Source: Acidobacteriota bacterium (GTDB lineage Bacteria > Acidobacteriota > Holophagae > Holophagales > Holophagaceae). From it: a DNA stretch of 64,000 nucleotides. Numbering within the stretch: the stretch's first letter is position 1; every line of letters starts with the position of its first letter. This document shows positions 3,222-15,847 of this stretch, in pieces. Both the position numbers and the translations under genes were made by a program. Below the pieces are notes generated by a model, which ran no database searches, was not told where the DNA came from, and saw only the letters and a list, made by a program, of their open reading frames with translations. The stretch is from contig JACPYP010000007.1 of the NCBI GenBank assembly GCA_016195985.1, positions 124,001 to 188,000 on the forward strand, given 5' to 3'.

Positions 3222-3659
3222 CTACCCATGGGTCTCTCCAACAAAGTCCCGACACCATGTGTAGAGGGCGTCGTAGACGATGAGGCCCATTTGGAGCTGC
3301 GCCTGATCATCCTGAATGTTGGCCCCCAGCCCCCGGCTGATGGCCAATAAGCCGGGGCTTTCGGGAGCGAGATCAAGTCGGTTGGTATCGGCTCCTCGAA
3401 CGATGATGGCGAGACGATCCAGGGCTGGATCCACCAGTTCGTACCTCTTCAAAAAGGCGTCGAAACTGCATCGCTCTCCCACATGGCCCAGTTCCACACC
3501 TGGGACATCGAAAGGGGTGGCTCCGGTGGTTTCGGCCACGGAGAGAACCTGATCCTTGGGCACATATAGGAACTCCGCTGCTTGGTCGATGAACCGGAGG
3601 ACCAGCCAAGGGCAGGCAATGCGGTCGATCCTGGGCCTTTCGCGGGTCACCCACTGCAT
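3222..3659 (-). CDS. Stand-alone ChrB C-terminal domain protein
   Basis: 145 residues homologous to the second half of the full-length ChrB encoded divergently at 4513-5478. Both carry the same opening block (here IDRIACPWLVLRFID, there VDRIACAWLIRRFID), the CSFDAF/CSFETL block and the I-V-R-G-A-D / I-H-D-I-D segment. It starts 8 bases after the superoxide dismutase stop, so the two are one leftward operon. In characterised chr operons ChrB is a chromate-responsive regulator; a protein with only this domain lacks the N-terminal part and may be a sensor or effector. The duplication on both sides of one promoter region ties it to chromate stress. Confidence 0.8.
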   Translation of the reverse strand: MQWVTRERPRIDRIACPWLVLRFIDQAAEFLYVPKDQVLSVAETTGATPFDVPGVELGHVGERCSFDAFLKRYELVDPALDRLAIIVRGADTNRLDLAPESPGLLAISRGLGANIQDDQAQLQMGLIVYDALYTWCRDFVGETHG

Positions 3660-3667
3660 ACGGACAC

Positions 3668-4405
3668 TCAGCCCTTCAGAACCAACAAGGCCTTCTGGGC
3701 GCGTTCGTAGCGGTGGTTCACCTCATCCCAATTGATGTTCTGGAAGAAGGCTTCGATGTACTTGGCTGCGGCAGCGCCGTAGTCCATCTGGTAGGCGTGC
3801 TCGTACATGTCCATCACGAGCAAGGGCAACCCCGCCGCGAGCGTCTGGCTGTGGTCCCCAGCCCAGGAGAGGCGCAAGTCGCCAGTGGGTAGGTGGAGAT
3901 CGAGGATCGCCCAGCCGCTGCCACCGGCGAGACTCATGCCCAATACCTTTAAGCCCTGTTCCCAGGCCCCGAGGGATCCCCACGTCGAGGCGATGGCCTT
4001 CGCGATGGAGCCGTCGGCCTTGCCATTGCCGCCCAGATTCCCGAAGTAGGCCTCGTGGAGGGTCATGGAATTGGCGTAGACCAACTCCTTGGCACGAAGC
4101 CCTCCCACCAGAAAGGCTGGCGTATCCGGCGTGGCTTTGGCCAGTTCGTTGCGAACCCCGTTCAGGTTCTTCACGGCCCCACCGTAGTTGTTGTCGTGGT
4201 GAGACGCGATGAGCTTCTCCGAGATGCCCTTCAATTTCGTCGGGTCGAAAGGGAGGGGCTTGGGGGCGAAGGCGGGGAGGGTAGGCGTCTGTGGCATGGC
4301 TTGCTCCTCCAACAGGGTTAAGTCTTTCCCCATGAGGGCGGTGGTGGCTGCGGCGACACCGCCGCTCACCAACAGGCCCAATGCGTTCCGTCGGGTCAGT
4401 TCCAT
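3668..4405 (-). CDS. sodB-like: Fe/Mn-family superoxide dismutase with Tat-type leader
   Basis: 245 residues. The ATG at 4405 is chosen because a strong AAGGGAGG lies 6 bases upstream and the product begins with a twin-arginine leader (ELTRRNALGLL); an upstream in-frame start would run into the divergent chrB. Metal-ligand blocks of the Fe/Mn SOD family are visible: SHHDNNYGG, TLHEAYFGNLGG, and MDMYEHAYQMDYG near the C terminus, followed by YIEAFFQNINWDEV. The Tat leader predicts a folded, metal-loaded periplasmic enzyme. Its position, divergent from chrBA and followed by a ChrB-domain gene, suggests defence against superoxide made during chromate reduction. Metal specificity cannot be decided. 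Confidence 0.88.
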   Translation of the reverse strand: MELTRRNALGLLVSGGVAAATTALMGKDLTLLEEQAMPQTPTLPAFAPKPLPFDPTKLKGISEKLIASHHDNNYGGAVKNLNGVRNELAKATPDTPAFLVGGLRAKELVYANSMTLHEAYFGNLGGNGKADGSIAKAIASTWGSLGAWEQGLKVLGMSLAGGSGWAILDLHLPTGDLRLSWAGDHSQTLAAGLPLLVMDMYEHAYQMDYGAAAAKYIEAFFQNINWDEVNHRYERAQKALLVLKG

Positions 4406-4512
4406 GGAAGCCTCCCTTGGTTGAAGGTTGAGACCCAAAGGTAGGGGGTCGGGAAAGGTTGCGCAAGATACATTTGTAGCACATGATTGATTCAGCTGAT
4501 TTTGAGGTAGAT

Positions 4513-5478
4513 ATGGCCGAAATTCCTGGACCCTGGCTGCTGCTGATCCACCAACTACCCCCACACCCCGCCTACTTCCGTGTGAAGGTGTGGCGTCAGC
4601 TCCAGGGGCTGGGGGCCGTGGCCCTCAAAAATTCCGTATACGCCCTTCCCCTGTCGGATGAGTCCCGCGAGGACTTCCAGTGGATGGTCCGGCAGATCGT
4701 GGCCGGGGGCGGGGAAGCCAGCGTGGTCGAGGCGCTCTTCGTGGACGGACTCACCGACGGGGAGATCCGGGAGCGCTTTCGCCAAGCTCGAAATGAGGAC
4801 TACACCAAGCTCCAGGAGGAAATCCTGGCCATCCAGAAAGCGCTCCCGAAAAATCCAGCCGAAGGACAGAAGGGGGAGACTGAGGTACAGCTTGCCAAGT
4901 TCAGGAAGCGGTATGCCGATCTCCAGGCCATCGACTTCTTCGAAGCCGGGGGCGCAGCCGAGGTGCGGACGCAGATCAACCGGCTGGAGACCCACCTCGC
5001 CCCCAAAGCTCTGGCCACTGAGGACAGCCCCACCTGGGACATCAAGGATCTTCAAGGCCGCACCTGGGTGACCCGCAAGGGCATGCATGTGGATCGCATC
5101 GCTTGCGCGTGGCTCATCCGGCGTTTCATCGATCCCGAGGCGCGATTCCGTTTTGTGGAATCCAAGACCACCTCCGTCCGAAAGGGCGAACTGCGCTTCG
5201 ACATGTTCGAGGGTGAGTTCACGCACGAAGGCGACTGGTGCAGCTTCGAAACCCTCGTCCATCGTCTGGGGCTTGAGGATGCGGCCCTGCACGCCTTGGG
5301 CGAAGTCATTCACGATATCGATCTGAAGGACGCCAAGTTCAAGCGCCCCGAGTCCTCCGGATTCGACCGGGCCATCATGGGCGTGGCGCTCCTTCATCCG
5401 AAGGACGAGGCCCGTCTGGTGGCTGGATCGGGTGTCCTGGACGCGTTCTACGCAGCCTTCCAGAAGGTCAAGCCATGA
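4513..5478 (+). CDS. chrB: Chromate resistance protein ChrB
   Basis: 321 residues when started at 4513, where GAGG lies 5 bases upstream; an in-frame ATG at 4483 exists but has no ribosome-binding site. The N-terminal half (PGPWLLLIHQLPPHPAYFRVKVW, NSVYALP) is the ChrB N-domain, then comes a charged helical linker, and the C-terminal half (VDRIACAWLIRRFIDPEARF, CSFETL) is the ChrB chromate-resistance domain. In studied operons ChrB regulates chrA in response to chromate. It overlaps chrA by 4 bases (ATGA), so the two are coupled. Confidence 0.9.
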   Translation: MAEIPGPWLLLIHQLPPHPAYFRVKVWRQLQGLGAVALKNSVYALPLSDESREDFQWMVRQIVAGGGEASVVEALFVDGLTDGEIRERFRQARNEDYTKLQEEILAIQKALPKNPAEGQKGETEVQLAKFRKRYADLQAIDFFEAGGAAEVRTQINRLETHLAPKALATEDSPTWDIKDLQGRTWVTRKGMHVDRIACAWLIRRFIDPEARFRFVESKTTSVRKGELRFDMFEGEFTHEGDWCSFETLVHRLGLEDAALHALGEVIHDIDLKDAKFKRPESSGFDRAIMGVALLHPKDEARLVAGSGVLDAFYAAFQKVKP

Positions 5479-6617
5479 GCGAGAAACCTTCCGTTCCCAT
5501 GGGCACTTTCCTGGCCTATTTCCTTCGACTGGGCACCCTCGGCTTTGGCGGCCCCATCGCTCTGGCGGGGGCCATGCACCGGGACTTGGTGGAGACCAGG
5601 GGTTGGATCACCGAAGAGGACTATCAGGAAGGGCTGACTCTCGCCCAGGTCTCGCCCGGCCCGCTGGCCGCCCAGCTCGCCATCTACCTCGGCTACGTGC
5701 GGGCGGGCATCCTCGGTGCAAATCTAGTGGGGCTCGCCTTCATACTGCCTTCCTTCTTGATGGTGCTGGGGCTGGCGGCCCTCTACCTGCGCTTCGGTGG
5801 CCTGCACTGGATGCAGGCCGTGTTCTACGGCGTGGGGGCTGCCGTCATCGGTCTCATCATCCGCAGCGCCTTCAAGCTCGCGAAGTCCACGCTCAAGCGT
5901 GACCCCCTGGCGTGGGGGATCTTCGCGGTTGTGGGCCTGGCCACGGCCATCACCGGGCGGGAGTGGGTCCTCCTGGTGATCGGCGGCGGCCTGCTCTTCT
6001 GGATCGTCAAGACCCGGCCCTGGCGGAATGGCACAGTGACTCTGAGCTTGACGCCTACCTTCTGGCTGACAGGGCTGCACGGTCCTGCTGCCCTCGCGAC
6101 GGTGGGCGGGATCTTCCTCTTCTTCGCCAAGGCCGGGCTCTTCGTGTTCGGCAGCGGACTGGCCATCGTGCCCTTCCTGCATGGGACGGTTGTTTCGGAG
6201 TTCCACTGGCTCACCGAGCAGCAGTTCCTAGATGCCGTGGCTGTGGCCATGATCACGCCAGGGCCAGTTGTCATCACCGTGGCCTTCATCGGCTACCTGG
6301 TGGCCGGTCCCCTGGGTGCCGGCGCGGCGGCCCTAGGCGTGTTCCTCCCGGTCCTCGTGGTGGTGATCATCGCGGCACCGCTCCTGCGGCGCTACGGCCA
6401 GCGCCCGGGTCTCAAGGCCCTCGTCCAGGGAATCACCGCTGGTGCTGCGGGGGCCATCGCAGGTTCAGTGGTGGTGCTAGGTCGTGGTGCCGTCCGTGAT
6501 CTGCCCACGGCCATCGTCGCCATCAGCACCCTGCTGCTCGTTTGGAAGACCAAAGTCCCCGAGCCCGTGCTGGTGGTCATGGCCGCGCTCGCGGGAGGAC
6601 TGCTGTTCCATGGGTAG
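5475..6617 (+). CDS. chrA: Chromate transporter ChrA
   Basis: 380 residues with two homologous halves, the long-chain CHR arrangement. Each half opens with an amphipathic FLRLGTLGFGGP or FFAKAGLFVFGSG block and contains a conserved PGP motif (QVSPGPLAAQLA and MITPGPVVITVAFIGY), with about ten membrane helices overall. The family exports chromate from the cytoplasm. The gene starts inside the chrB stop codon and its own last 8 bases overlap the next gene, giving tight coupling from chrB into the DUF5916 gene. Confidence 0.95.
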   Translation: MSEKPSVPMGTFLAYFLRLGTLGFGGPIALAGAMHRDLVETRGWITEEDYQEGLTLAQVSPGPLAAQLAIYLGYVRAGILGANLVGLAFILPSFLMVLGLAALYLRFGGLHWMQAVFYGVGAAVIGLIIRSAFKLAKSTLKRDPLAWGIFAVVGLATAITGREWVLLVIGGGLLFWIVKTRPWRNGTVTLSLTPTFWLTGLHGPAALATVGGIFLFFAKAGLFVFGSGLAIVPFLHGTVVSEFHWLTEQQFLDAVAVAMITPGPVVITVAFIGYLVAGPLGAGAAALGVFLPVLVVVIIAAPLLRRYGQRPGLKALVQGITAGAAGAIAGSVVVLGRGAVRDLPTAIVAISTLLLVWKTKVPEPVLVVMAALAGGLLFHG

Positions 6618-8775
6618 TCCCTTCCGCAGTGCGCTCCTGATGACGATGACGGCGCTCCTTTCGGGAGCCGACCGCCCCACCATCCCCGCCATCCGGCTCG
6701 GCTCCGAGGCACAGGTCATCCATGTGGATGGTCGTCTGGACGAATCCGCGTGGGCCCTGGCCCCCGTAGTGGCCCTCACCCAGCAGGCGCCGCATTCCGG
6801 CGAGGTCAGCCCCTTCATCACCACCGCCCGAATCCTGGTTACACCGAAGGGGATCTACATCGGTCTGCGCTGCCTCGACCCAGACCCCAAGCACCTCAGC
6901 ATCCACTCCCTGCTGCGCGACGCCGACCTCACGGGAGATGACACGGTGGCCGCCGTGCTCGACACCAGCGGAGATGGCCGCACCGGCTGGCTCTTCCGGA
7001 TCAACGCAGGGGGCGCCCGGCAGGATGGCCTGATTTCCGGGCCGGAGGCCGTGTCCCTGGATTGGGATGGGATCTGGGAGGCCGCCACCACTCGCGACGA
7101 AGGCGGCTGGACTGCGGAAATCTTCATCCCCAGCAGGACCCTCCGCTTCAACCCGGCCAAGGACACCTGGGGCCTCAACCTGGAACGCTTTGTGGCTCGG
7201 GAGCGGATGACACTCCGCTGGTCCAGCCCTACGCTCGACTCCCGCCTGGAGGACATGAGCCGGAATGGTGTGCTCACGGGCCTTCAGGGGTTGGAGCGGG
7301 GCCGGGGCTTCTCGGTGACCCCCTACCTATCTGGTCAGACCTTCCAGGACTTCCAATCCCGCGAGACCAGCACCCGGGTCCGTGCGGGCCTGGACCTCAC
7401 CGCACCCCTGGGCGAACAGATGCACGGGGTGCTCACCATCCGTCCGGACTTCGCCGAGACGGAGGTGGACCTCCAGCGCATCAACCTCACGCGCTTCCCG
7501 CTGCTCTACCCCGAGAAGCGGGCCTTCTTCCTGGAGGGGGCCAACCTCTTCCAGTTCGGGCTGGGCCTGGAGGAGATGTTCCTGCCCTTCTTCTCCCGCA
7601 CCATTGGTCTGGTTAACGGGGTGATGGTTCCCCTGGATGCGGGCGTGAAGGTTCTGGGCCGCGTAGGGGATGTCTCGGTCGGGGCCCTGGGGGTTCAGCA
7701 GCAGGGCCTGCTGGACGGCCCGTCCAAGACCCTCGGCACCACCCGCCTGGCCTGGGACATGAACAAGAACTTCCGCATGGGCTACCTCGGTACCCGGGGA
7801 AATCCGGCGAGCCCCCAGCACAATGCCTTCGACGGGGCCGACCTGCTGTGGCACACGTCTGAAGCCTTCGGCGACAAGAACTTCCTGGTGGGGGCCTGGG
7901 GCGGGCGCAGCTCCGGTGACCTGCCCGATGGCAGCCATGATGGCTACGGCCTCAAAGTGGACTACCCCAACGACCTCTGGGATCTCACGGCTTCCTGGAA
8001 CCGCTTCGGTGATGCGCTGCTGCCTGCCATGGGCTTCCTGCCTCGTCCGGGCACCCGCCAGAGCAAGCTCGCGGCGGCCTTCCAGCCGCGACCCACGTCC
8101 CCGTCCCTCCAGTGGATCCGGCAGGCGTTCTTCGAGGTCCAATACCTTCGCGTGGAGGACCTGCAAGGGCGTGTGGAAAGTTGGCAGCTCTTCACCGCGC
8201 CCTTCAACATCGTCACCCCGCAAGGCGACCATTTCGAGGTCAACTACCAGCCCGAGTTCGAGCGCCTGAACATGCCCTTCGAGATTGTCCCGGGCGTGGT
8301 GATCCCCGTGGGCGACTACCGCTTCGACCGCTACCGCGCCCAGGTGGAAAGTTCCTCCTCGCGGCGGTGGCAGGTGAACAGCACCGTGTGGTTCGGTGAT
8401 TTCTACGGAGGGCGGTTGACGCAGTGGGTGCGCGGCGCGGGCTATACCTCCAGGGAGGGCGGGTGGCACATCGTCGCCAGTAGCGAAGTGGATTTCGCCC
8501 ACATGCCCTGGGGCGACTTCACGCAGAAACTGCTGACGGTTAGGAACGAGTTCGCCTGGAGTGCCGACCTCGTGCTCTCCGCCATCGCCCAATACGAAAC
8601 AGAGTCCCGGAACGTCGGGGGTCAGGTGCGCCTTCGATGGACCCCCCGCCCGGAACTGGAGGTCTTCCTGGTGGGTGACCGCACTTGGCTCAATCCCTTG
8701 GACACCGGCCCCATGCGGCTCGTCCCCCAGCAACAGCGGCTGTCGTTCAAGGTCCGCTGGACCTTCCGACCCTAG
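6610..8775 (+). CDS. DUF5916 protein with CBM9-like N-domain (secreted/outer membrane)
   Basis: 721 residues started at the ATG at 6610, which overlaps the end of chrA by 8 bases. A short hydrophobic leader (about residues 5-19) is followed by a CBM9-like domain (IHVDGRLDESAWALAP near residue 38, ARILVTPKGIYIGLRC) and then by the DUF5916 region, with the hallmark PEKRAFFLEGANLFQFG and C-terminal aromatic strands ending in RWTFRP. The alternating strands and terminal aromatic/basic residues suggest a membrane barrel. Function of the family is unknown; coupling to chrA suggests co-expression with chromate efflux. Confidence 0.75.
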   Translation: MGSPFRSALLMTMTALLSGADRPTIPAIRLGSEAQVIHVDGRLDESAWALAPVVALTQQAPHSGEVSPFITTARILVTPKGIYIGLRCLDPDPKHLSIHSLLRDADLTGDDTVAAVLDTSGDGRTGWLFRINAGGARQDGLISGPEAVSLDWDGIWEAATTRDEGGWTAEIFIPSRTLRFNPAKDTWGLNLERFVARERMTLRWSSPTLDSRLEDMSRNGVLTGLQGLERGRGFSVTPYLSGQTFQDFQSRETSTRVRAGLDLTAPLGEQMHGVLTIRPDFAETEVDLQRINLTRFPLLYPEKRAFFLEGANLFQFGLGLEEMFLPFFSRTIGLVNGVMVPLDAGVKVLGRVGDVSVGALGVQQQGLLDGPSKTLGTTRLAWDMNKNFRMGYLGTRGNPASPQHNAFDGADLLWHTSEAFGDKNFLVGAWGGRSSGDLPDGSHDGYGLKVDYPNDLWDLTASWNRFGDALLPAMGFLPRPGTRQSKLAAAFQPRPTSPSLQWIRQAFFEVQYLRVEDLQGRVESWQLFTAPFNIVTPQGDHFEVNYQPEFERLNMPFEIVPGVVIPVGDYRFDRYRAQVESSSSRRWQVNSTVWFGDFYGGRLTQWVRGAGYTSREGGWHIVASSEVDFAHMPWGDFTQKLLTVRNEFAWSADLVLSAIAQYETESRNVGGQVRLRWTPRPELEVFLVGDRTWLNPLDTGPMRLVPQQQRLSFKVRWTFRP

Positions 8776-8793
8776 CCCTTCTGGATTCCAACC

Positions 8794-9531
8794 ATGACCT
8801 TCCTCTCCACCCTTCGCGCCCTGGCCACGGTCTCCTTGACGACCGCGCTCTTCGCAGGGCCTCCCTACCTCACCGATGACCCCGAGCCCGTGGAGAGGCA
8901 CCACTGGGAGACCTACCTGTTCATGCAGGGGGTGGTCGTGTCCCATGGCACCAAGTCCGGCCTGCTACCCGCCTTCGAGGCCAACTACGGTCCCTTCGCC
9001 AACGCCCAGATCCAGTTCCAGATCCCAGTGGCCTACGAGCAGAAGCCGGATGGCACGCGTGACCATGGCCTTGGCGACCTTCAGGCGGGCTTCAAATACC
9101 GCTTCGTCCAGGAAGGCAACATCCTTCCCCAGATCGCCATCTACCCTCAGGTCCAGGCCCCGACCGGCAACGAACAAGTTGGTCTGGGCAATGGCCACTG
9201 GCGCCTCTACGTGCCCGTCTTGTTCCAGAAGAGCTTCGGCCCTTGGACCACCTATGGCGGCCCAGGTTGGTGGCGGAACCCCGGAGACGGGGAGCAGAAC
9301 TACATGACCTTCGGTTGGCAGGTGCAGCGCAGCTTCGGAGAAACGTTCTCCATGGGGGCCGAGGTCTTCCACCAGGGAGCCGACACCATCGGCGGCACCG
9401 GCTCCACCACTTTCAACCTCGGCTGCGTCAAAAGCCTGGGATCCCGCTTCGCGGCACTCGCAACCCTTGGCCGAGTTTTCCATGGCGAGACCGGCTACCA
9501 GGTCTACCTCGGGGTGCGGGGAACGTTCTAA
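8794..9531 (+). CDS. Outer-membrane beta-barrel protein (MetA/transporter-like)
   Basis: 245 residues with an N-terminal signal peptide (hydrophobic 9-20, cleavage after LFAG). The mature part alternates short amphipathic strands and ends in YLGVRGTF with a C-terminal Phe, the usual barrel-assembly signal. Strand content such as ANAQIQFQIPVAYEQ and GDLQAGFKYRFVQ resembles the 'MetA pathway of phenol degradation'/transporter barrel family. It lies 18 bases after the DUF5916 gene and 78 bases before the cytochrome gene, probably one operon. It may be an outer-membrane channel for the system; substrate unknown. Confidence 0.7.
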   Translation: MTFLSTLRALATVSLTTALFAGPPYLTDDPEPVERHHWETYLFMQGVVVSHGTKSGLLPAFEANYGPFANAQIQFQIPVAYEQKPDGTRDHGLGDLQAGFKYRFVQEGNILPQIAIYPQVQAPTGNEQVGLGNGHWRLYVPVLFQKSFGPWTTYGGPGWWRNPGDGEQNYMTFGWQVQRSFGETFSMGAEVFHQGADTIGGTGSTTFNLGCVKSLGSRFAALATLGRVFHGETGYQVYLGVRGTF

Positions 9532-9609
9532 GACCGAACCACCACCCTTTTCCTTCCCTCACCAACCCACTGCGCGAACGACATCGCGCCCTTTGAAAGG
9601 ACATGCCCC

Positions 9610-10833
9610 ATGAACCCCTTCACCCGCCCAGGGCGAGCCCTCCTCCTGCTGGCGATGCTCGGCACGGCCATGGGAGCCTTCGCCCAGACGATGACCTTCC
9701 CCGACGGCACGGCCACGGACTCCAAGAAGTGCGGCATGTGCCACAAGGCCGTCTACCGCGAGTTCGCCCACGGCTTCGGCAGCGACATCCACAACAACCC
9801 GACCACGATCCCCGGGAAGGAAGGCGAGTCCCTCGACTTCAAGGGCTCCGTGTCGGCCACGGCTACCGCCCATGCCTTCGCCGGGACCGACAACTACCCC
9901 TTGCATGCCCGCGACGCTGAAGAGGGTGGCCGCTCGTGCAACGTGTGCCACTACCCCATGCCCTTCGCCATCCCTGACCTGAACGTGGCCGAGATGACCA
10001 AGCCCACGGCGCGGCCCAAGGACAAGGAAGCGGGCGGCCTGACCTGCGCCAGTTGCCACCTCACGCCGGAGGGCAAAATCCGAGGCGCCCACGCCGTGAA
10101 GGCCCCCCACGAGACCGTAGTGGACCCTGCCATCCAGACTTCAGCCATGTGCGCCTACTGCCACAGCATGGGCAAGCGGGCCTCGGGCAAGCAGACCCAG
10201 ACCTTCTTCGAGTGGCGCGAGGACTTCTTCAAGCCCGGCCTGGGCAAGCAGCAGTGCCAGGACTGCCACATGCCCCGCACGCTTCGGAAGGTGGTCGATA
10301 GCCCTGATGCCCCCGAACGTGCCGTCGCTCGCCACCTCTGGACCGGGGGCCGCTCCCTCCAGCGCCTGAACAGCGCCCTCAGCCTCGTGGCCGTGCAGAC
10401 GGAAGAAGGTAAGGGCACCCTGAACCTTCACTTGATCAACATCGGCGCGGGCCACTCAGTCCCCACCGGCTCCAACCGCCGGGCCATCTACCTCGTGGCC
10501 GAAGTGCTCGATGCTGCCGGGAAAAAGGTAGCCGACGCCGATTGGATGTTCGCCCCCTGGTATGGCCCCCGGCCCGATGACCGCAAGTTCCTGGAAGAGG
10601 ACAAGGCCCGCCCCGATGCCATCGCCGCCACCCAGGCCGACGCCCAGGGCCCCCACGAGGCGCCCATCAAGGCAGGCGAGGAGCGCATCCTACCCTGGGC
10701 CCCCAAGCTGAAGGCAGGCACCTACACAGTGAAGGCTCGGCTCATCTACGACCTGAACCGCTACAACGACCGTTCCTTCAAGGCCGACCAGACCGAGTTC
10801 AACAGCACCACGCTGGCGTTCAGCGTGAAGTAA
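9610..10833 (+). CDS. Five-heme periplasmic cytochrome c (cytochrome c554-like)
   Basis: 407 residues with a signal peptide (hydrophobic 10-22, AFAQ cleavage near 26). Five CXXCH heme sites are seen at Cys41 (CGMCH), Cys110 (CNVCH), Cys146 (CASCH), Cys181 (CAYCH) and Cys216 (CQDCH), all in the first 220 residues. The C-terminal half has no heme motif and looks like a beta-sandwich. The KKCGMCHKAVYREF opening resembles cytochrome c554/c-prime proteins. The start is supported by AAAGGA upstream. Last gene of the chrB-chrA-DUF5916-barrel run, so a link to metal or chromate electron transfer is plausible but unproven. Confidence 0.9.
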   Translation: MNPFTRPGRALLLLAMLGTAMGAFAQTMTFPDGTATDSKKCGMCHKAVYREFAHGFGSDIHNNPTTIPGKEGESLDFKGSVSATATAHAFAGTDNYPLHARDAEEGGRSCNVCHYPMPFAIPDLNVAEMTKPTARPKDKEAGGLTCASCHLTPEGKIRGAHAVKAPHETVVDPAIQTSAMCAYCHSMGKRASGKQTQTFFEWREDFFKPGLGKQQCQDCHMPRTLRKVVDSPDAPERAVARHLWTGGRSLQRLNSALSLVAVQTEEGKGTLNLHLINIGAGHSVPTGSNRRAIYLVAEVLDAAGKKVADADWMFAPWYGPRPDDRKFLEEDKARPDAIAATQADAQGPHEAPIKAGEERILPWAPKLKAGTYTVKARLIYDLNRYNDRSFKADQTEFNSTTLAFSVK

Positions 10834-10888
10834 GGAACTAAGACCTTGCCTCCGGCGGCGGAGAGGATCTTGTCGGAAGAGGCCACCT

Positions 10889-10932
10889 AAAGGAGCAAGA
10901 GGCAGCCTTCAGGGGCCACCTCTTGCTCCTTT
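10889..10932. terminator. Perfect 14-bp hairpin, bidirectional terminator
   Basis: Arms AAAGGAGCAAGAGG (10889-10902) and CCTCTTGCTCCTTT (10919-10932) are perfectly complementary around a 16-base loop. The hairpin lies 55 bases after the cytochrome stop and faces the decayed kinase gene on the other strand. The 3' arm ends in TTT but no long U tract follows, so its strength as an intrinsic terminator is uncertain. It marks the boundary between the chromate operon and the lower-GC island. Confidence 0.7.
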
Positions 10933-10984
10933 CAATTGAACAATCAGGTGATAGCCTCACCCTGCATAGCGCTAGTGGATTTTC

Positions 10985-11284
10985 TCATTGCCTAGAATTC
11001 AGGCTTCTCGTGCAGACATTCGCTCGAGAAGGCACCGTTGCTGCCCTCGCCCCTACCTGCTGCCAGGGGAGACCAGGGCCGCTCTCACGGACTTCCTGGA
11101 TCGGTGTGGACTCCAATCCGTCCGCCAGCCTGCCCCTATCCATCGACGGCTTGATCAGCTTTAAAACAACATCACCTTCAATAGCGTGAGTTGCACCAAA
11201 CACCCATTTTTGTCCGCCTTCACCAATAAGCAATACATTCGCAAGGTCTGGAAAAGTATGCGTCAGCCAAATCGGGGTTATCAC
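10985..11284 (-). pseudogene. Truncated Ser/Thr protein kinase (N-lobe only)
   Basis: The GTG at 11284 has AGGAG 8 bases upstream, inside the stop region of the preceding nuclease gene, so the pair was once an operon. Residues about 15-35 hold a kinase N-lobe: glycine loop GEGGQKWVF followed by GDVVLKLIKP with the beta-3 lysine. After this the reading becomes low-complexity and stops at about 99 codons. No HRD, DFG or APE motifs occur here or in the other frames down to the hairpin at 10932. I read it as the 5' stump of a kinase gene deleted by the neighbouring operon boundary. Confidence 0.55.
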
Positions 11285-11295
11285 TGGCGAAGCTC

Positions 11296-12234
11296 CTATG
11301 CGAGTCCCCGGGCAACTGATGAGCGCCAAGCCCACTCATTGAAAAGCCACGATGCGTATGACTTCGGTTGCTCTTCCGCTCTCACAGGAGATCGCAAGAT
11401 AGGCTCAGGATCACCTACAATCCAGATGCCGACCCCTTCCGATTGGGCGTCTCTAAGGCAATTTCCAGATTTTGGGGACTTTGGCAACAATACGTATGAC
11501 TCGGATGCAAACCATTTATTTAAAGAGGCCTGCTCAACTGCCTTGGAGAAATCGGAAATCTTGGCCTCTAAGGCAATGATATGCCTTACTGCGAAACTAT
11601 TCTTTATGGAGGAGAGCTTCCAGATGGATCCTCGATTAGAGATTAAGCCTAGGTTCGCTAATCGGTCGATCCATCGTTTGATTGGCGTTTGAAGTAAATA
11701 TTTTAATTGTTCTTCCGTTTGTGAACCGTGGCAGGCCAGGATGTGTAGTATTCGGACTTCGTCACGAGTAATACTGGCTCGCTCAGTCATCCAACGATTT
11801 GCAGTTGGTTTGTGCCAGATCACTGCGACTAGATCCGGGAATCCTGAAATCAGTTTAGGTTCTTGGAATATGGTTAGGCGCTGTGTGGGTTTAGTAGAAA
11901 ATGGCAGTTCTAGAAGAAACTGGTTCACCAGGTGCGTTTCGGCCCCGACCCTTGGTCGGCGACCGCCGATGCCTTTGTCGTCGACGCACTGAATCAGGTC
12001 AACCCCTGATTTGCGAACCAGAGGCATAGGCATGTTGCCTAGATATTGTGGTGGACCAGGCACTCTCACGGAACCCATAGACTTCTTCGTCCTCATGAAC
12101 CGCCCACAATTTGGATAGTGGGCAAACGGTAGGAACCTGCCAGAAGCATACCAAGATTTGAGCCAATCGATGGTGCGGAAACATACCACGGTCGCAATAT
12201 TCAGGCGCGTCAATGCTAGTGGGAACTCGCACAA
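11296..12234 (-). CDS. Predicted PD-(D/E)XK nuclease with inserted winged helix
   Basis: 312 codons from a weak TTG; ATGs at 12096 and 12078 are alternative starts, so the N terminus is uncertain. Nuclease-like residues are spread as expected for PD-(D/E)XK: Glu99 (ETHLVNQFL), Asp134 in GFPDLVAVIW, then Glu223 and Lys225 in IIALEAKISDF, followed by the alpha helix AVEQASLNKWF. Between Asp134 and Glu223 lies a winged-helix-like segment (about 155-210, EVRILHILACHGSQTEEQLKYLL). The C-terminal ESYVLLPKSPKS block completes the fold. Base composition is visibly more AT-rich than flanking genes. Followed directly by the kinase stump. Function inferred only from motifs. Confidence 0.55.
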   Translation of the reverse strand: MCEFPLALTRLNIATVVCFRTIDWLKSWYASGRFLPFAHYPNCGRFMRTKKSMGSVRVPGPPQYLGNMPMPLVRKSGVDLIQCVDDKGIGGRRPRVGAETHLVNQFLLELPFSTKPTQRLTIFQEPKLISGFPDLVAVIWHKPTANRWMTERASITRDEVRILHILACHGSQTEEQLKYLLQTPIKRWIDRLANLGLISNRGSIWKLSSIKNSFAVRHIIALEAKISDFSKAVEQASLNKWFASESYVLLPKSPKSGNCLRDAQSEGVGIWIVGDPEPILRSPVRAEEQPKSYASWLFNEWAWRSSVARGLA

Positions 12235-12243
12235 CGGCGGGTG

Positions 12244-12438
12244 TCATCCATAGACAATAGGCCGACCCTTAGTCGATGTCGGGCGGCCTCGGCGCTTGGG
12301 TGATGGCACTTCACCAGGTGTGGAGTTCCTTGGGCGACCTCGCCGAATAGGTGGGGGCGCTTCAGAGAGCACGGACTTCAGGCGTTCCAGGAGGGTCGGT
12401 GTCCGCCGCCCCGAATTGCCGAGATGCCGCAGCTTCAA
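12244..12438 (-). CDS. Small AT-hook-like ORF (doubtful)
   Basis: 64 codons from a TTG start. Two AT-hook cores occur, RRGRPR near residue 33 and KRRGRP near residue 48, in a Pro/Arg-rich chain. The 5' half overlaps the end of the hsdR remnant in another frame and no convincing ribosome-binding site is seen. It could be a chance reading through decayed DNA or a small DNA-binding protein ahead of the nuclease gene. Confidence 0.25.
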   Translation of the reverse strand: MKLRHLGNSGRRTPTLLERLKSVLSEAPPPIRRGRPRNSTPGEVPSPKRRGRPTSTKGRPIVYG

Positions 12439-13030
12439 CTACTATCCGCTCACCCGTCTCGCGGTCTACGTACACGATCTTGTCGGCTTCCTTCACCGGT
12501 ATGCCCAGGAGGCGCACCTGGGAATCGACGTTCACTTAATCGAAGTCGACCAGATAGCCTTCATCGATGGCCTGTTGCAGCCCGTAGACGCGCAGGCGAG
12601 TCGTCTCTTCTACGGGATGGTCCTTGAACCACCCAACGGCTACGGTTGGGTCGGTACAGAACATATCCGCCAGGGCCTCAGGGGCATGAAGTCCATCCAT
12701 GGGTTGCCGGGACATATAGTCCTCCCGGCGAACATCGGCGAACCAGTGCTGCAACCCATTGCTGGAGTAAAGGAAGAGAATCCGATATCCATTCCAATTA
12801 CCAGCCCCATCGACAATATCCCGAGAGTAGCGCTGCGCTTGGACCAGCACCCCCTCTGAACCGACCTCCAGCTTCTTGGCCCCCAGAGCCCCTAAGGGCT
12901 TCCCTTTCATGAACAGAACATAATCAGAAGGTCCGCTGGCGGTGCCGCCCCAGCGGACCCCAATTTGAACCATCCCGTTGATCGATTGAAGCGGCTTCGA
13001 GGGGTCGAGTAGGCCTTCCTGAACACTCAA
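12362..13030 (-). pseudogene. hsdR: Remnant of type I restriction subunit HsdR
   Basis: Fragments typical of HsdR are collinear but shortened. First comes the nuclease region (DYVLFMKGKPLGALGAKK, then AQRYSRDI and FLYSSNGLQHWF) with Gly in place of the catalytic Glu of the usual EAKK. Next is the LHAPEALADMF block. The reading then jumps to YGLQQAIDEGYLVDFD, which in intact proteins lies beyond the helicase motor, so helicase motifs are deleted. An in-frame TAA at 12536 interrupts it; the same frame continues with VNVDSQVRLLGIPVKEADK and VYVDRETGER, also HsdR-like, to a stop at 12362. Clearly non-functional. Confidence 0.7.
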
Positions 13031-13349
13031 ACCTAGAAATAATTGAAAATGGGGTCCGATTTGAATTGGTTAAAAATTTGATTCACAACAATTGACCACT
13101 CGGATTCCGGTCCTACCTTCTTTATTTCAATAATTCAGTCATGAGATCAGTTTCTGACTTCCTGCTCGTCTCCGGGCATGGTCGCTGGAAGATGGGGCTC
13201 TGATTTCTCTTAGGAATGCCCTGTTCGGCTATGTCATGGCCCTCACCTAGGCCACATACGCCTGTTTCACTTTGGCATTTGAAACGAGACAACGGACATC
13301 TGAAAAGAACAAATGACAACTGAAACGAGCCCCGACAACTAAACCGGTT
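13031..13349. other. Non-coding junction between island and bla cassette
   Basis: No gene is supported here. The left part is AT-rich (around 13040-13135). The right part carries iterated GACA(A/T)CT repeats, listed separately. A 65-codon reading on the minus strand (13122-13319) has no recognisable domain. Confidence 0.5.
13295..13345. repeat. Iterated ~20-bp repeats, possible IS21-type end
   Basis: Three copies of a GACAWCTRAAA-like motif begin at 13295 (GACATCTGAAAA), 13315 (GACAACTGAAAC) and 13334 (GACAACTAAACC), spaced 20 and 19 bases; a weaker GACAACGG occurs at 13288. Short repeats at about 20-bp pitch are a feature of IS21-family ends, where they bind the transposase. No istA or istB is present, so this would be a solo end. 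Confidence 0.35.
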
Positions 13350-13421: not shown

Positions 13422-13805
13422 ATGTCCGCTGCAACCCGTCCCACCGATGCCGAACTCGCCATCCTCCGCGTTCTGTGGGAGCGGGGGCCCAGCACGGTCC
13501 GGCAGGTCTTCGAGGTGCTGTCCGAGGAGAAGGACCTGGGCTACACCACCGTCCTCAAGATGCTGCAGATCATGACGGAAAAGGGCCTGGTGCAGCGCGA
13601 GATCACGGACCGCGTGCACATCTTCTCCACAACGCAGACACAGACGGAAACCCGGCAGACCCTGCTGGACGATCTGCTGGACAAGGCCTTCGGCGGCTCC
13701 TCCAAGAGCCTGGTGATGCAGGCCCTGGCCACCCGCAAGACAAGCCAGGCCGAACTGGCTGAGATCCGGAAGATGCTCGATCAGGCAGAAGGGAGGAAGC
13801 GATGA
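13422..13805 (+). CDS. blaI: BlaI/MecI-family transcriptional repressor
   Basis: 127 residues, full length for the family. The N-terminal winged helix is intact (PTDAELAILRVLWERGPSTVRQVFEVL, GYTTVLKMLQIMTEKGLV), followed by the dimerisation helices (LLDDLLDKAFGGS, LAEIRKMLDQ). BlaI proteins repress beta-lactamase and sensor genes until cleaved after BlaR1 activation. The stop overlaps the blaR1 start by 4 bases (ATGA). A promoter with operator dyads lies 30-70 bases upstream. Confidence 0.93.
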   Translation: MSAATRPTDAELAILRVLWERGPSTVRQVFEVLSEEKDLGYTTVLKMLQIMTEKGLVQREITDRVHIFSTTQTQTETRQTLLDDLLDKAFGGSSKSLVMQALATRKTSQAELAEIRKMLDQAEGRKR

Positions 13806-15847
13806 CCATGCTCCTGTCGCTCTTGCTGCAGCCCTGGGCCCAGACCCTCGGCTGGACGCTTCTCCATTTCCTTTGGCAGGGGCTGATCCTGGGCCTGCTG
13901 GCCTGGGGAACCCTCGCCCTCATGAGGGGAGGCAGCGCCCGGGCCCGCTACGGCGTGGCCTGCGCCTTCCTGGTGCTGATGGTGGCCAGCCCCCTGGCCA
14001 CCTACCGGGTGCTGCAGCGCCAGCCCCCGGCGGCGCCCGCCCTCAGCGTGAGCGTGGACGCCACTGCCCCCTCCGGCGAGATTCCGCCTCCAGCCCCGCT
14101 GGCCCAGCGGGTGAAGGCCTCCCTGGATCCCGCCCTGCCCTGGCTGCTGGCCGCCTGGGCCGCGGGCGTGCTGGCGCTGTCCCTGCGCTTCCTGGGCAGC
14201 TGGCTGCGGGTGCAGCGGCTGCGCCGGCGCAGCGCGGTGCCGGTGCCCTCCGAATGGCATCTGATCCTTTCCCGCCTTTGCCGCGACCTGAAGCTCTCCC
14301 GCACGGTGCGGCTGCTGCAGTCCGCGGCGGTGGAAGTGCCCACGGCCCTGGGCTGGCTGCGGCCCGTGATCCTGCTGCCCGCCTGCGCCCTGGCGGGCCT
14401 CAGCCCCCTTCAATTGGAAGCCATCCTGGCCCACGAGCTGGCGCACATCCGCCGGGGCGATTTCGTGGTGAACCTGCTCCAATCCCTGGTGGAAGTGCTG
14501 CTCTTCTACCATCCGGCCGTCTGGTGGCTGTCCGCCCGCATCCGCGCCGAGCGCGAGCTCTGCTGCGACGACGTGGCCGCAGATCTCTGCGGCGATCCCC
14601 TGATCCTGGCCCGTGCCCTGACCGATCTCGAGTCCCTGCGCGAGCCCATCGCTCCATCTCCCACCCCTCTGGCCATGGCCGCCAATGGAGGCTCCCTCAT
14701 GCACCGCGTCCGCCACCTGCTTCATCCCGCCCTGCCCATCACCAGCGGGGCCCGCGCCACCGCCCTGGCCGTGTTGGCCGCCTCCCTTCTGGGCGCCGCC
14801 GGGGTGGCCATGCAGGACAAACCGAAGGACGGCGCTGAGCCCGAAAAGACCACCCGCATCCGCGTGGCCGACGGCGACCGGAACCTGAACGTGTCCATGA
14901 AGGGCGATGTCCAGATCAACAGCGAGGCCCCGGAACCCGTGGTGGTGGCCGGCGACGGCAGTTTCTCGGTGGAGGAAAAGAAGGATGGCAAGAAGCGCGT
15001 CTACGCCGCCGTCAAAGGCAAGGCGACCTACACCGTGGACGGCGCGGAAAAGCCCGTGGACAAGGACGTCCGCGACTGGCTCCGGGAAGTCCTGCGCAAC
15101 GTCAAGCGCAACGAATACGCCCGCGTGCGGGTGATGGAGGTCAAGCGGCGCCACATGGAAAGCCGGGAGCGCGCGATGGAAGCCAAGGGCCGGGCCATGG
15201 AGGCCCAGGGCCGCGCCTTGGAAGCGAAGATGCGGCAGCTCGAACTGCGCGACCCGAGCATGAGTGCCGAGGACCGGGCCAAGCTGCAGGCCGAGACCGA
15301 CCAGTTGAAAGCCGAAGGCGAAAAGCTCAAGGCCGAGGGCGAACGCTTCAAGGAGGATGGCGAGCGTTTCAAGGAACAGGCCGAGCGGTTCAAGCAGAGC
15401 CATGAATTCAAGCACATGATCGAGGAGGCCCGGAAGGCCGGGCGGGAAGTTCATGTGGAGGTGCACCGCAAAGGCGAGGGAGGCGCCGAAGCCATCGTGA
15501 CGGGACCCGGAGGGAGCGGCCACGACTTCACCTGGATCAACCCCGGCGATTTCGAGGGCCTCGACATCGCGGAGGATATCCACATCCCTCCCATCCACAT
15601 CCCCAAGGTCCGCGTGAAGACCTTTTCCCGCGGCGGCGAGACCGATCCCAAGGCCGAGATGGCCGAGATCCAGGTGGAATTGAAAGCCCTCCAGGCCCGG
15701 CTGGACCAGTTGCAGCACCAGATCGCCACCCCGCCCAAGCCTCCCAAACCGCCCAAGCCGCCGGTGGCTCCCAAGGCCGTCCATCCCTCCGTCCCAGCCC
15801 CCCCGGCGCCCCCCGCCCCGGACGCGCCTCCCGCGCCGGGCGTGTAG
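13802..15847 (+). CDS. blaR1: BlaR1-type M56 sensor metallopeptidase
   Basis: 681 residues. Residues 1-100 and 120-140 hold membrane helices. The zinc site HELAH is at 211-215 with the downstream acidic RERELCCDDVA block, and a last helix lies at about 318-336. This is the M56 peptidase that inactivates BlaI. The periplasmic C-terminal part (about 340-681) is unusual: no penicillin-binding SXXK/SXN/KTG domain is visible. Instead there is a beta-rich stretch, a long charged coiled coil (about 430-545, rich in GERFKE/MEAKGRAM units), and a Pro/Lys/Ala tail. What it senses is therefore unclear. Coupled to blaI. Confidence 0.88.
   Translation: MTMLLSLLLQPWAQTLGWTLLHFLWQGLILGLLAWGTLALMRGGSARARYGVACAFLVLMVASPLATYRVLQRQPPAAPALSVSVDATAPSGEIPPPAPLAQRVKASLDPALPWLLAAWAAGVLALSLRFLGSWLRVQRLRRRSAVPVPSEWHLILSRLCRDLKLSRTVRLLQSAAVEVPTALGWLRPVILLPACALAGLSPLQLEAILAHELAHIRRGDFVVNLLQSLVEVLLFYHPAVWWLSARIRAERELCCDDVAADLCGDPLILARALTDLESLREPIAPSPTPLAMAANGGSLMHRVRHLLHPALPITSGARATALAVLAASLLGAAGVAMQDKPKDGAEPEKTTRIRVADGDRNLNVSMKGDVQINSEAPEPVVVAGDGSFSVEEKKDGKKRVYAAVKGKATYTVDGAEKPVDKDVRDWLREVLRNVKRNEYARVRVMEVKRRHMESRERAMEAKGRAMEAQGRALEAKMRQLELRDPSMSAEDRAKLQAETDQLKAEGEKLKAEGERFKEDGERFKEQAERFKQSHEFKHMIEEARKAGREVHVEVHRKGEGGAEAIVTGPGGSGHDFTWINPGDFEGLDIAEDIHIPPIHIPKVRVKTFSRGGETDPKAEMAEIQVELKALQARLDQLQHQIATPPKPPKPPKPPVAPKAVHPSVPAPPAPPAPDAPPAPGV

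Follow-up and report, generated by a model that had tools for sequence, protein, structure and literature searches.

The window analysed here, a stretch of 64,000 nucleotides from the genome of an Acidobacteriota bacterium, carries three reading frames that follow one another, in the order of minus-strand transcription, as a fragment of the type I restriction subunit HsdR, a nuclease-like ORF and an ORF holding the stump of a protein kinase. These, and the landmarks within them, are as follows, with the evidence for each in brackets:

10834..13338, strand not specified: low-GC stretch holding the HsdR remnant, the nuclease and the kinase stump (GC content, DNA comparison with relatives)
10985-11335, minus strand: kinase-stump ORF, 116 aa, of which the gene part is 10985..11284, from GTG 11284 (ORF list)
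11293..11297, minus strand: AGGAG over the nuclease stop, before the kinase GTG (sequence)
11296-12234, minus strand: nuclease-like ORF, 312 aa, open from TTG 12234
11296..12078, minus strand: predicted gene of a PD-(D/E)XK-like nuclease that carries an inserted winged helix (homologue alignments, model, start codons)
11560..11568, minus strand: codons of Glu155-Ala-Lys157 (Glu223 and Lys225 of the 312-aa ORF), the ExK motif (invariant, 13/13)
11611..11787, minus strand: predicted winged-helix insert, model residues 82-140 (AlphaFold2 model and structural comparison)
11833..11835, minus strand: codon of Asp66 (Asp134), in the GFPD motif (invariant, 13/13)
11938..11940, minus strand: codon of Glu31 (Glu99), first acidic residue of the nuclease core (13/13)
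12536..13030, minus strand: degenerate HsdR fragment, type I restriction subunit, upstream of the nuclease (profile matches)

The genes are closely packed: the AGGAG at 11297-11293 overlaps the TAG stop of the nuclease (11298-11296), and the kinase GTG follows 8 nt on. GC content is 0.47-0.48 at 11250-12000 and 0.49-0.60 in the rest of the insert, against 0.61-0.73 in the flanks, which bears out the AT-richness that an initial annotation of this DNA had remarked upon. The hsdR remnant that it placed next door is likewise real: the fragment matches NCBIfam PRK11448 (E 1.7e-13) and, slightly below the curated cut-off of that family, HSDR_N (E 6.1e-5), and it precedes the nuclease as an intact HsdR does at another locus, L026. 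In this remnant GAKK stands where the ExK nuclease motif would be—we take this stretch to be the usual place of that motif in HsdR—and the restriction nuclease looks dead. Among relatives of the same genus, DNA similarity to the window begins abruptly at about 13338, ahead of a BlaI/M56 pair. This holds for the nine relatives fetched, out of 39 genomes with a match and 47 of the genus searched, and the sequence upstream is therefore absent from the site in those nine. The pair itself, a BlaI-type regulator and an M56 peptidase, lies at 13422-15847 on the plus strand; the peptidase was matched in 39 of the 47 genomes.

Elsewhere, as we describe below, the nuclease and a complete kinase are accompanied by a third gene. 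This gene was not found anywhere in the genome to which the window belongs (98.3% complete), and the window copy is for that reason a relic, the decayed copy of a mobile three-gene module. Since its kinase is a stump and its third gene is gone, it cannot work as a three-gene system, but its nuclease may conceivably retain a solitary activity.

The nuclease and the kinase

The nuclease gene is probably shorter than the ORF in which it lies. Most homologues align from residue 87, 88 or 92 of the 312-aa ORF, and the earliest from residue 72. Because homology starts near residue 87, a later start is to be preferred: probably ATG 12078, which has GAGGA about 10 bases upstream and gives 260 residues, within the range of the relatives, or, as an alternative, ATG 12033. 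On this evidence the first 52-68 codons or so of ORF 11296-12234 on the minus strand are probably not part of the nuclease. The initial annotation had taken the 312 residues as one protein from the long start, which must be given up, because the onset of homology lies near residue 87 and the N-terminal part yielded no family match.

The remainder of that annotation's description of the protein has held. It proposed that Glu99, Asp134, Glu223 and Lys225 form a PD-(D/E)XK core, with a winged helix between the acidic pairs. In the trimmed nuclease (11299-12030) these residues are E31, D66, E155 and K157, and together with Gln167 they are invariant in all 13 aligned close homologues, which come from unrelated contigs. 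When divergent members are included, the Glu and Lys of the ExK motif occur in 19 of 19 and the first Glu is aligned in 19 of 19. The Asp is aligned in 15 of 19; it is gapped in four compact nucleases, whose own alignment shows a G-x-x-D-V motif. An AlphaFold2 model built on 12 sequences (that of L008 was left out, as it has masked residues) has a pLDDT of 85.9 and a pTM of 0.84, and comprises a helix (30-41), two strands (50-56 and 67-73), a winged helix (82-140), a strand (148-156), a helix (161-173) and a final strand (177-182). The order is alpha-beta-beta-beta-alpha-beta, with the winged helix inside the core. Model and alignment thus present both the core topology of PD-(D/E)XK enzymes and their helix-borne Glu, Asp and ExK motif, and by this prediction ORF 11296-12234 encodes a PD-(D/E)XK-like nuclease whose core is interrupted by a winged helix.

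With the nuclease model, Foldseek gave no match at E <= 0.001, and most of the matches listed were MarR-type proteins. By VIA, the domains closest in shape to the insert are Zalpha/Zbeta and MarR-type domains (4ka4_B, Z 10.9, rmsd 0.8 over 53 residues); the VIA matches listed for the whole nuclease lie mostly over the winged helix, and the sole one among them across the core is 3dnx (Z 9.5, 133 residues, rmsd 4.1), which we take to be a DUF2161 PD-(D/E)XK-like protein. The insert is not universal. The compact nucleases, from L027, L029, L030 and L082, consist of the core without it, and their profile and that of the longer nucleases match across the ExK half (probability 98.4, E 4.7e-15). The L083 nuclease has a winged-helix-like insert by alignment, yet by score it groups with the divergent members. 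The profile libraries searched gave no family for the nuclease, nor any match to NERD; one nuclease has a weak MTase_I match (E 0.0093), and otherwise the three proteins match no HsdR, HsdM or HsdS family. A same-genus genome match (G133, E 7.7e-4) was set aside as accidental: it falls on residues 35-97, beyond the conserved portion of the ORF, and spans what reads by eye as a carbamate-kinase-like gene.

The kinase of the window is an N-lobe and little else. As the initial annotation stated, it adjoins the nuclease, with AGGAG over the stop of the latter. Its motifs align with those of full kinases up to VVLKLIKP; it ends after the beta-3 lysine, the region of which is the only kinase hallmark it carries. 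Homology to full kinases is confined to 11147-11284, and the remainder, to the stop, is unrelated sequence. The full kinases of other loci, by comparison, are of the eukaryotic Ser/Thr type: the beta-3 Lys, the alpha-C Glu, the HRD motif and the DFG-type Asp, and indeed all of the Lys, Glu, HRD, Lys, Asn, Asp and Gly positions, are present in 15 of 15 aligned. Two of them match Pkinase with E-values of 4e-24 and 1.9e-27, and among solved structures the nearest chains belong to bacterial Ser/Thr kinases, including PknB (best E 1.7e-18). Among the profile libraries searched the kinase reaches generic kinase families only, the best PADLOC models being PD-T4-6 (E 5.5e-35 and 9.7e-41) and MAD6.

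The three-gene set and its surroundings

Loci were collected in several ways. The nuclease, run against 396 genomes of the phylum, matched five—that of the window, a probable chance match and three relatives—and a scan of genome contigs with it gave six loci. A profile of the third gene matched 10 of the 396 genomes. Viral contigs were scanned too, and the three family profiles were then run over the ORFs of all loci obtained. Whole genomes were thus searched in one phylum, and other phyla were sampled through the genome-contig and viral-contig scans. Searches of plasmid and phage records gave nothing (neither the window nuclease nor the third protein of L035 matched any of 50,697 phage records), and viral scans with single third proteins gave nothing beyond contigs already found.

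A complete trio of nuclease, full kinase and third gene occurs in 16 distinct loci: L007, L008 (where the contig ends within the third gene), L009, L010, L012, L024, L025, L026, L027, L029, L030, L031, L035, L037, L082 and L083. In this count, copies of one and the same contig are merged, as are L035 and L036, two contigs that are near-identical; the trios of L010 and L012 are also near-identical but occupy different sites. No locus was obtained with the kinase as query, and so its presence in all 16 was not built into the search. Intact nuclease–kinase pairs in other genomes had been predicted from the window, and these loci supply them, each with a full kinase and, in the 15 aligned, with all the catalytic residues checked. 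Neither a fold other than that of a nuclease nor homologues lying beside unrelated genes without a kinase, the outcomes that would have counted against the pairing, was encountered. The pair therefore stands, but as a two-gene unit it was drawn too small: the third gene is there in every complete locus.

Fourteen of the 16 loci have the genes on a single strand in the order nuclease, kinase, third gene. L027 and L031 have the nuclease convergent, tail to tail with the other two, which implies that the trio outlives rearrangement. The nuclease stop and the kinase start are separated by -76 to +8 nt, as measured in 11 loci, where kinase starts were taken from profile matches or ORF starts. The three proteins also diverge in step. 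Across 14 loci (L008 was excluded for its cut third gene, L012 as a near-copy of L010), protein distances correlate with r 0.884 for nuclease and kinase, 0.827 for nuclease and third protein, and 0.935 for kinase and third protein, values that 0 of 20000 permutations reached in each case. With the eight closer loci taken by themselves, r is 0.83, 0.72 and 0.64 (2, 17 and 887 of 20000 permutations), the last, for kinase and third protein, being weak.

Five loci hold a nuclease gene, or a piece of one, without the full set: the window, L011, L040, L041 and L042. The kinase is reduced to 98 codons in L011, and 98 residues are matched in L040 and 196 in L041. In L042, a phage contig, all that is left of the nuclease is its 83 C-terminal codons, a deletion remnant lying directly after a gene for the large subunit of terminase (3222-4829, plus strand). 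In L040 an in-frame fusion joins the nuclease ORF to what is, to judge from its motif, apparently the N-terminus of a dUTPase (5878-5970, plus strand), as if the module had landed inside that phage gene. The third gene stands by itself in L028, at a contig edge, and in L032, L033 and L034, and these four were left out of the trio counts.

The trio is mobile, and keeps varied company. It is found in type I restriction loci: a complete HsdR ends just ahead of the nuclease in L026, and HsdS and HsdR flank the trio in L031, where a 178-codon gene of unknown function lies between kinase and HsdS (8562-9098, minus strand). A DNA methylase is upstream of it in L030. It is found with transposons of the Tn7 type: TnsA-like, transposase and TniB genes adjoin it in L010, and the neighbours of the L011 copy resemble these by eye. 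In both (L010:1-5874, L011:129-5132) the Tn7-like transposition genes adjoin the nuclease, with a divergent XRE-type regulator between, and in L011 the kinase is truncated. Phage-type integrases lie near the trio in L007 and L012; directly after the L012 trio (8811-9845, plus strand) there is a weak match to an Mrr-type restriction endonuclease, below the curated cut-off (E 0.0099). In L008 and L009 the neighbours, read by eye over the stretch available, are mostly metabolic, and no defence gene was recognised among them. And it is found in phage structural regions: L083 reads terminase, nuclease, kinase, third gene, portal; the trio follows a head-morphogenesis gene in L082 and a tape-measure-like gene in L035; and of the incomplete copies, those of L040 and L042 adjoin terminases and that of L041 follows a weak head- or portal-like match.

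With several viral-contig copies among head and tail genes, a role in the service of phages is conceivable. The genes might form a cassette for packaging, for the control of lysogeny, for modification of host tRNA or for counter-defence, in which case the chromosomal copies would be prophage remains. The packaging and structural genes near the six viral copies just named speak for such a cassette. Their position in the phages varies from contig to contig, however, other copies are accompanied by Tn7-like transposition genes or lie inside type I restriction loci, and the 50,697 phage records hold no match. We consider this account unlikely, although it is the one most deserving of attention after that of an anti-invader module, to which we return after describing the third protein.

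The third protein and comparison with known systems

By sequence, the third protein belongs to no family in the profile libraries searched (Pfam, NCBIfam, PADLOC and PHROG). None of 13 members matches a Pfam family at E <= 10, PF01702 included; four members scanned against NCBIfam and PADLOC gave no match, and nothing convincing came from PHROGs. Immunoglobulin matches of the family, with E no better than 0.011, were discounted as chance hits. Its predicted structure is more telling. The model is a (beta/alpha)8 barrel (pLDDT 87.0, pTM 0.90), and all 50 of the matches listed by Foldseek from the PDB are tRNA-guanine transglycosylases (TGTs), the best with an E of 3.2e-6. VIA aligns it with the archaeosine TGT 1iq8 (Z 20.2, 304 residues, rmsd 3.6), and also with human QTRT1 (6h42), and among viral models a putative queuine tRNA-ribosyltransferase comes first (E 1.5e-4), followed by other barrels. 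On the strength of the model, then, the third protein can be assigned the TGT fold. Alignment of the family by hhalign with seven true TGTs gave a probability of 0.4, no sequence relation, and the link to TGTs therefore rests on the predicted model.

What the protein keeps of the TGT active site appears to be limited. In the enzyme of Z. mobilis, catalysis depends on Asp102 and on the nucleophile Asp280, and zinc is bound at a Cys/His site (PMC6165067). In the third protein an aspartate that follows the third barrel strand, Asp57, is conserved in 15 of 15 and stands, by strand order, where TGTs have D102, the Asp of DSGGF. At the end of strand 8, which by the same reckoning is the position of the nucleophile, all 15 have Ser, Thr or Ala-Gly and there is no conserved acid, and the alignment shows no conserved cysteine or Cys cluster. 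One TGT-like aspartate is thus retained, and the nucleophile and the zinc cysteines are apparently lost, as judged from strand order rather than superposition.

Two minor points concern this family. In L007 (6406-6486), L009 (7533-7613) and L035 (7560-7640) the frame of the third gene is open for about 26 codons upstream of the conserved MELHLQFG, and the extension repeats a similar M-x-x-LH-x-GM pattern; the earlier start may be the true one. The stand-alone relatives in L032 (2908-4170), L033 (6496-7695) and L034 (1242-2462) are distant, come from three genomes and form an uncharacterised branch, and no nuclease or kinase was found near them.

Homologues of TGT are used by two known systems, Dpd and BRC (PMC12839542). 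In Dpd, the TGT homologue DpdA inserts 7-deazaguanine into DNA and is accompanied by restriction genes. Dpd resembles the trio in its combination of a TGT fold with nucleases and in its mobile defence setting. If the trio worked in a like manner, as a restriction–modification system, a true transglycosylase would put a 7-deazaguanine-like base into host DNA as a mark, DNA without the mark would be cut by the nuclease, and the kinase would regulate. The TGT fold and the conserved Asp57 in the place of D102 (PMC6165067) are consistent with this, as is the marking of DNA by TGT homologues in Dpd, and its proposed marking in BRC (PMC12839542). The absence of an acid at the nucleophile position and of a cysteine cluster argues otherwise. 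Nor were deazaguanine synthesis genes, or genes like DpdB or DpdC, recognised by eye among the neighbouring ORFs; some loci have lost the third gene while keeping the nuclease; and, unlike Dpd, the trio has a Ser/Thr kinase in every complete locus and a third protein without a PF01702 match. We think it rather improbable that the trio marks DNA in this way.

Other systems share one component or another. PglW of type 2 BREX, and a subset of DndF, are NERD nucleases fused to kinase domains (PMC12839542), and like the trio they couple a restriction-endonuclease-like domain to a Ser/Thr/Tyr kinase in defence. In the trio, however, the genes are separate, the nuclease has no NERD match and carries a winged helix in its core, and the third gene has the TGT fold. 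BRC (BREX-related capture) resembles the trio in placing a TGT domain in a proposed defence locus, but it is built on PglZ, HerA/FtsK and STAND proteins (PMC12839542), none of which was recognised by eye beside the trio. PD-T4-6, the PADLOC kinase family that best matches the trio kinase, is a single-gene system, whereas the trio kinase adjoins a nuclease and a third gene in 16 of 16 complete loci. The kinase is similar also to MAD6 of MADS (methylation-associated defence), but two trio kinases score 87.7 and 91.2 bits where the MAD6 equivalog cut-off is 460, and no other MADS part was among the matches of the trio proteins scanned. Type I restriction genes, finally, adjoin the trio in L026 and L031 and as the HsdR remnant of the window, but the trio is not itself HsdR, HsdM or HsdS. 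Searches of the literature, covering the main text of open-access articles and of a minority of preprints, listed no paper that describes a nuclease–kinase–TGT trio, and the three-gene set is apparently undescribed.

A possible role in defence

From its context, the trio probably protects cells against invading DNA. The account that we favour, with some reserve, is that a PD-(D/E)XK nuclease, a Ser/Thr kinase and a TGT-fold protein make up a mobile three-gene module against invaders, intact elsewhere and decayed in the window. The restriction, transposon and phage settings speak for it, as do the best PADLOC matches of the kinase, PD-T4-6 and MAD6; the neighbourhoods of L008 and L009 speak against it. 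The conserved residues and the three folds come from computation, as do the trio, its mobility, its contexts and its truncation in the window; we infer the defence function, the ligand, the sequence of steps and that the kinase activates instead of inhibiting. Conserved as it is, and found on phages, on Tn7-like elements and at restriction loci, the trio is in any event a strong candidate for an unrecorded defence system.

How such a module might work can be sketched tentatively. Possibly, a TGT fold that no longer exchanges bases reads unusual purines in phage DNA or tRNA, and signals through the kinase to the winged-helix nuclease. The TGT-fold protein would be the sensor, or specificity part, and would bind an unusual or modified purine of the invader's DNA or tRNA, holding it in the base pocket that true TGTs use, with no canonical base exchange; this role is suggested because the barrel and one pocket aspartate are kept while the nucleophile and the zinc site are apparently missing. 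The kinase would relay the signal by phosphorylating the nuclease or the TGT-fold protein. The nuclease, placed by its winged helix, would then cut DNA, and it is cast as the effector because nothing in the family is as constant as its metal-site residues. If this is correct, the fold of a tRNA-modification enzyme has been recruited as a sensor of infection, and the hypermodification of phage bases would serve as a trigger and not a shield. It raises the question of whether base-modification enzymes can become sensors of modified phage nucleic acid.

That the kinase would activate, as this sketch of the module supposes, is suggested because open nuclease frames persist beside broken kinases in the window, L011, L040 and L041. 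The same four loci weigh against a system of the toxin–antitoxin kind, in which the nuclease would be a toxin held off by the kinase, with the TGT-fold protein, and addiction would retain the mobile elements. Tight coupling of the nuclease and kinase genes and their presence on mobile elements would suit such an arrangement, but we judge it improbable. There is equally little chance that the ORFs of the window are a dead ordinary fragment, a mere nuclease pseudogene: truncated kinase, missing third gene and fragmentary HsdR would fit, but the nuclease frame is open and has every catalytic residue, and elsewhere the family does exist in intact form.

The trio comes, moreover, in two forms. Nucleases with the winged helix and nucleases without it, each with a kinase and a TGT-fold partner of its own, offer a ready comparison of targeting.
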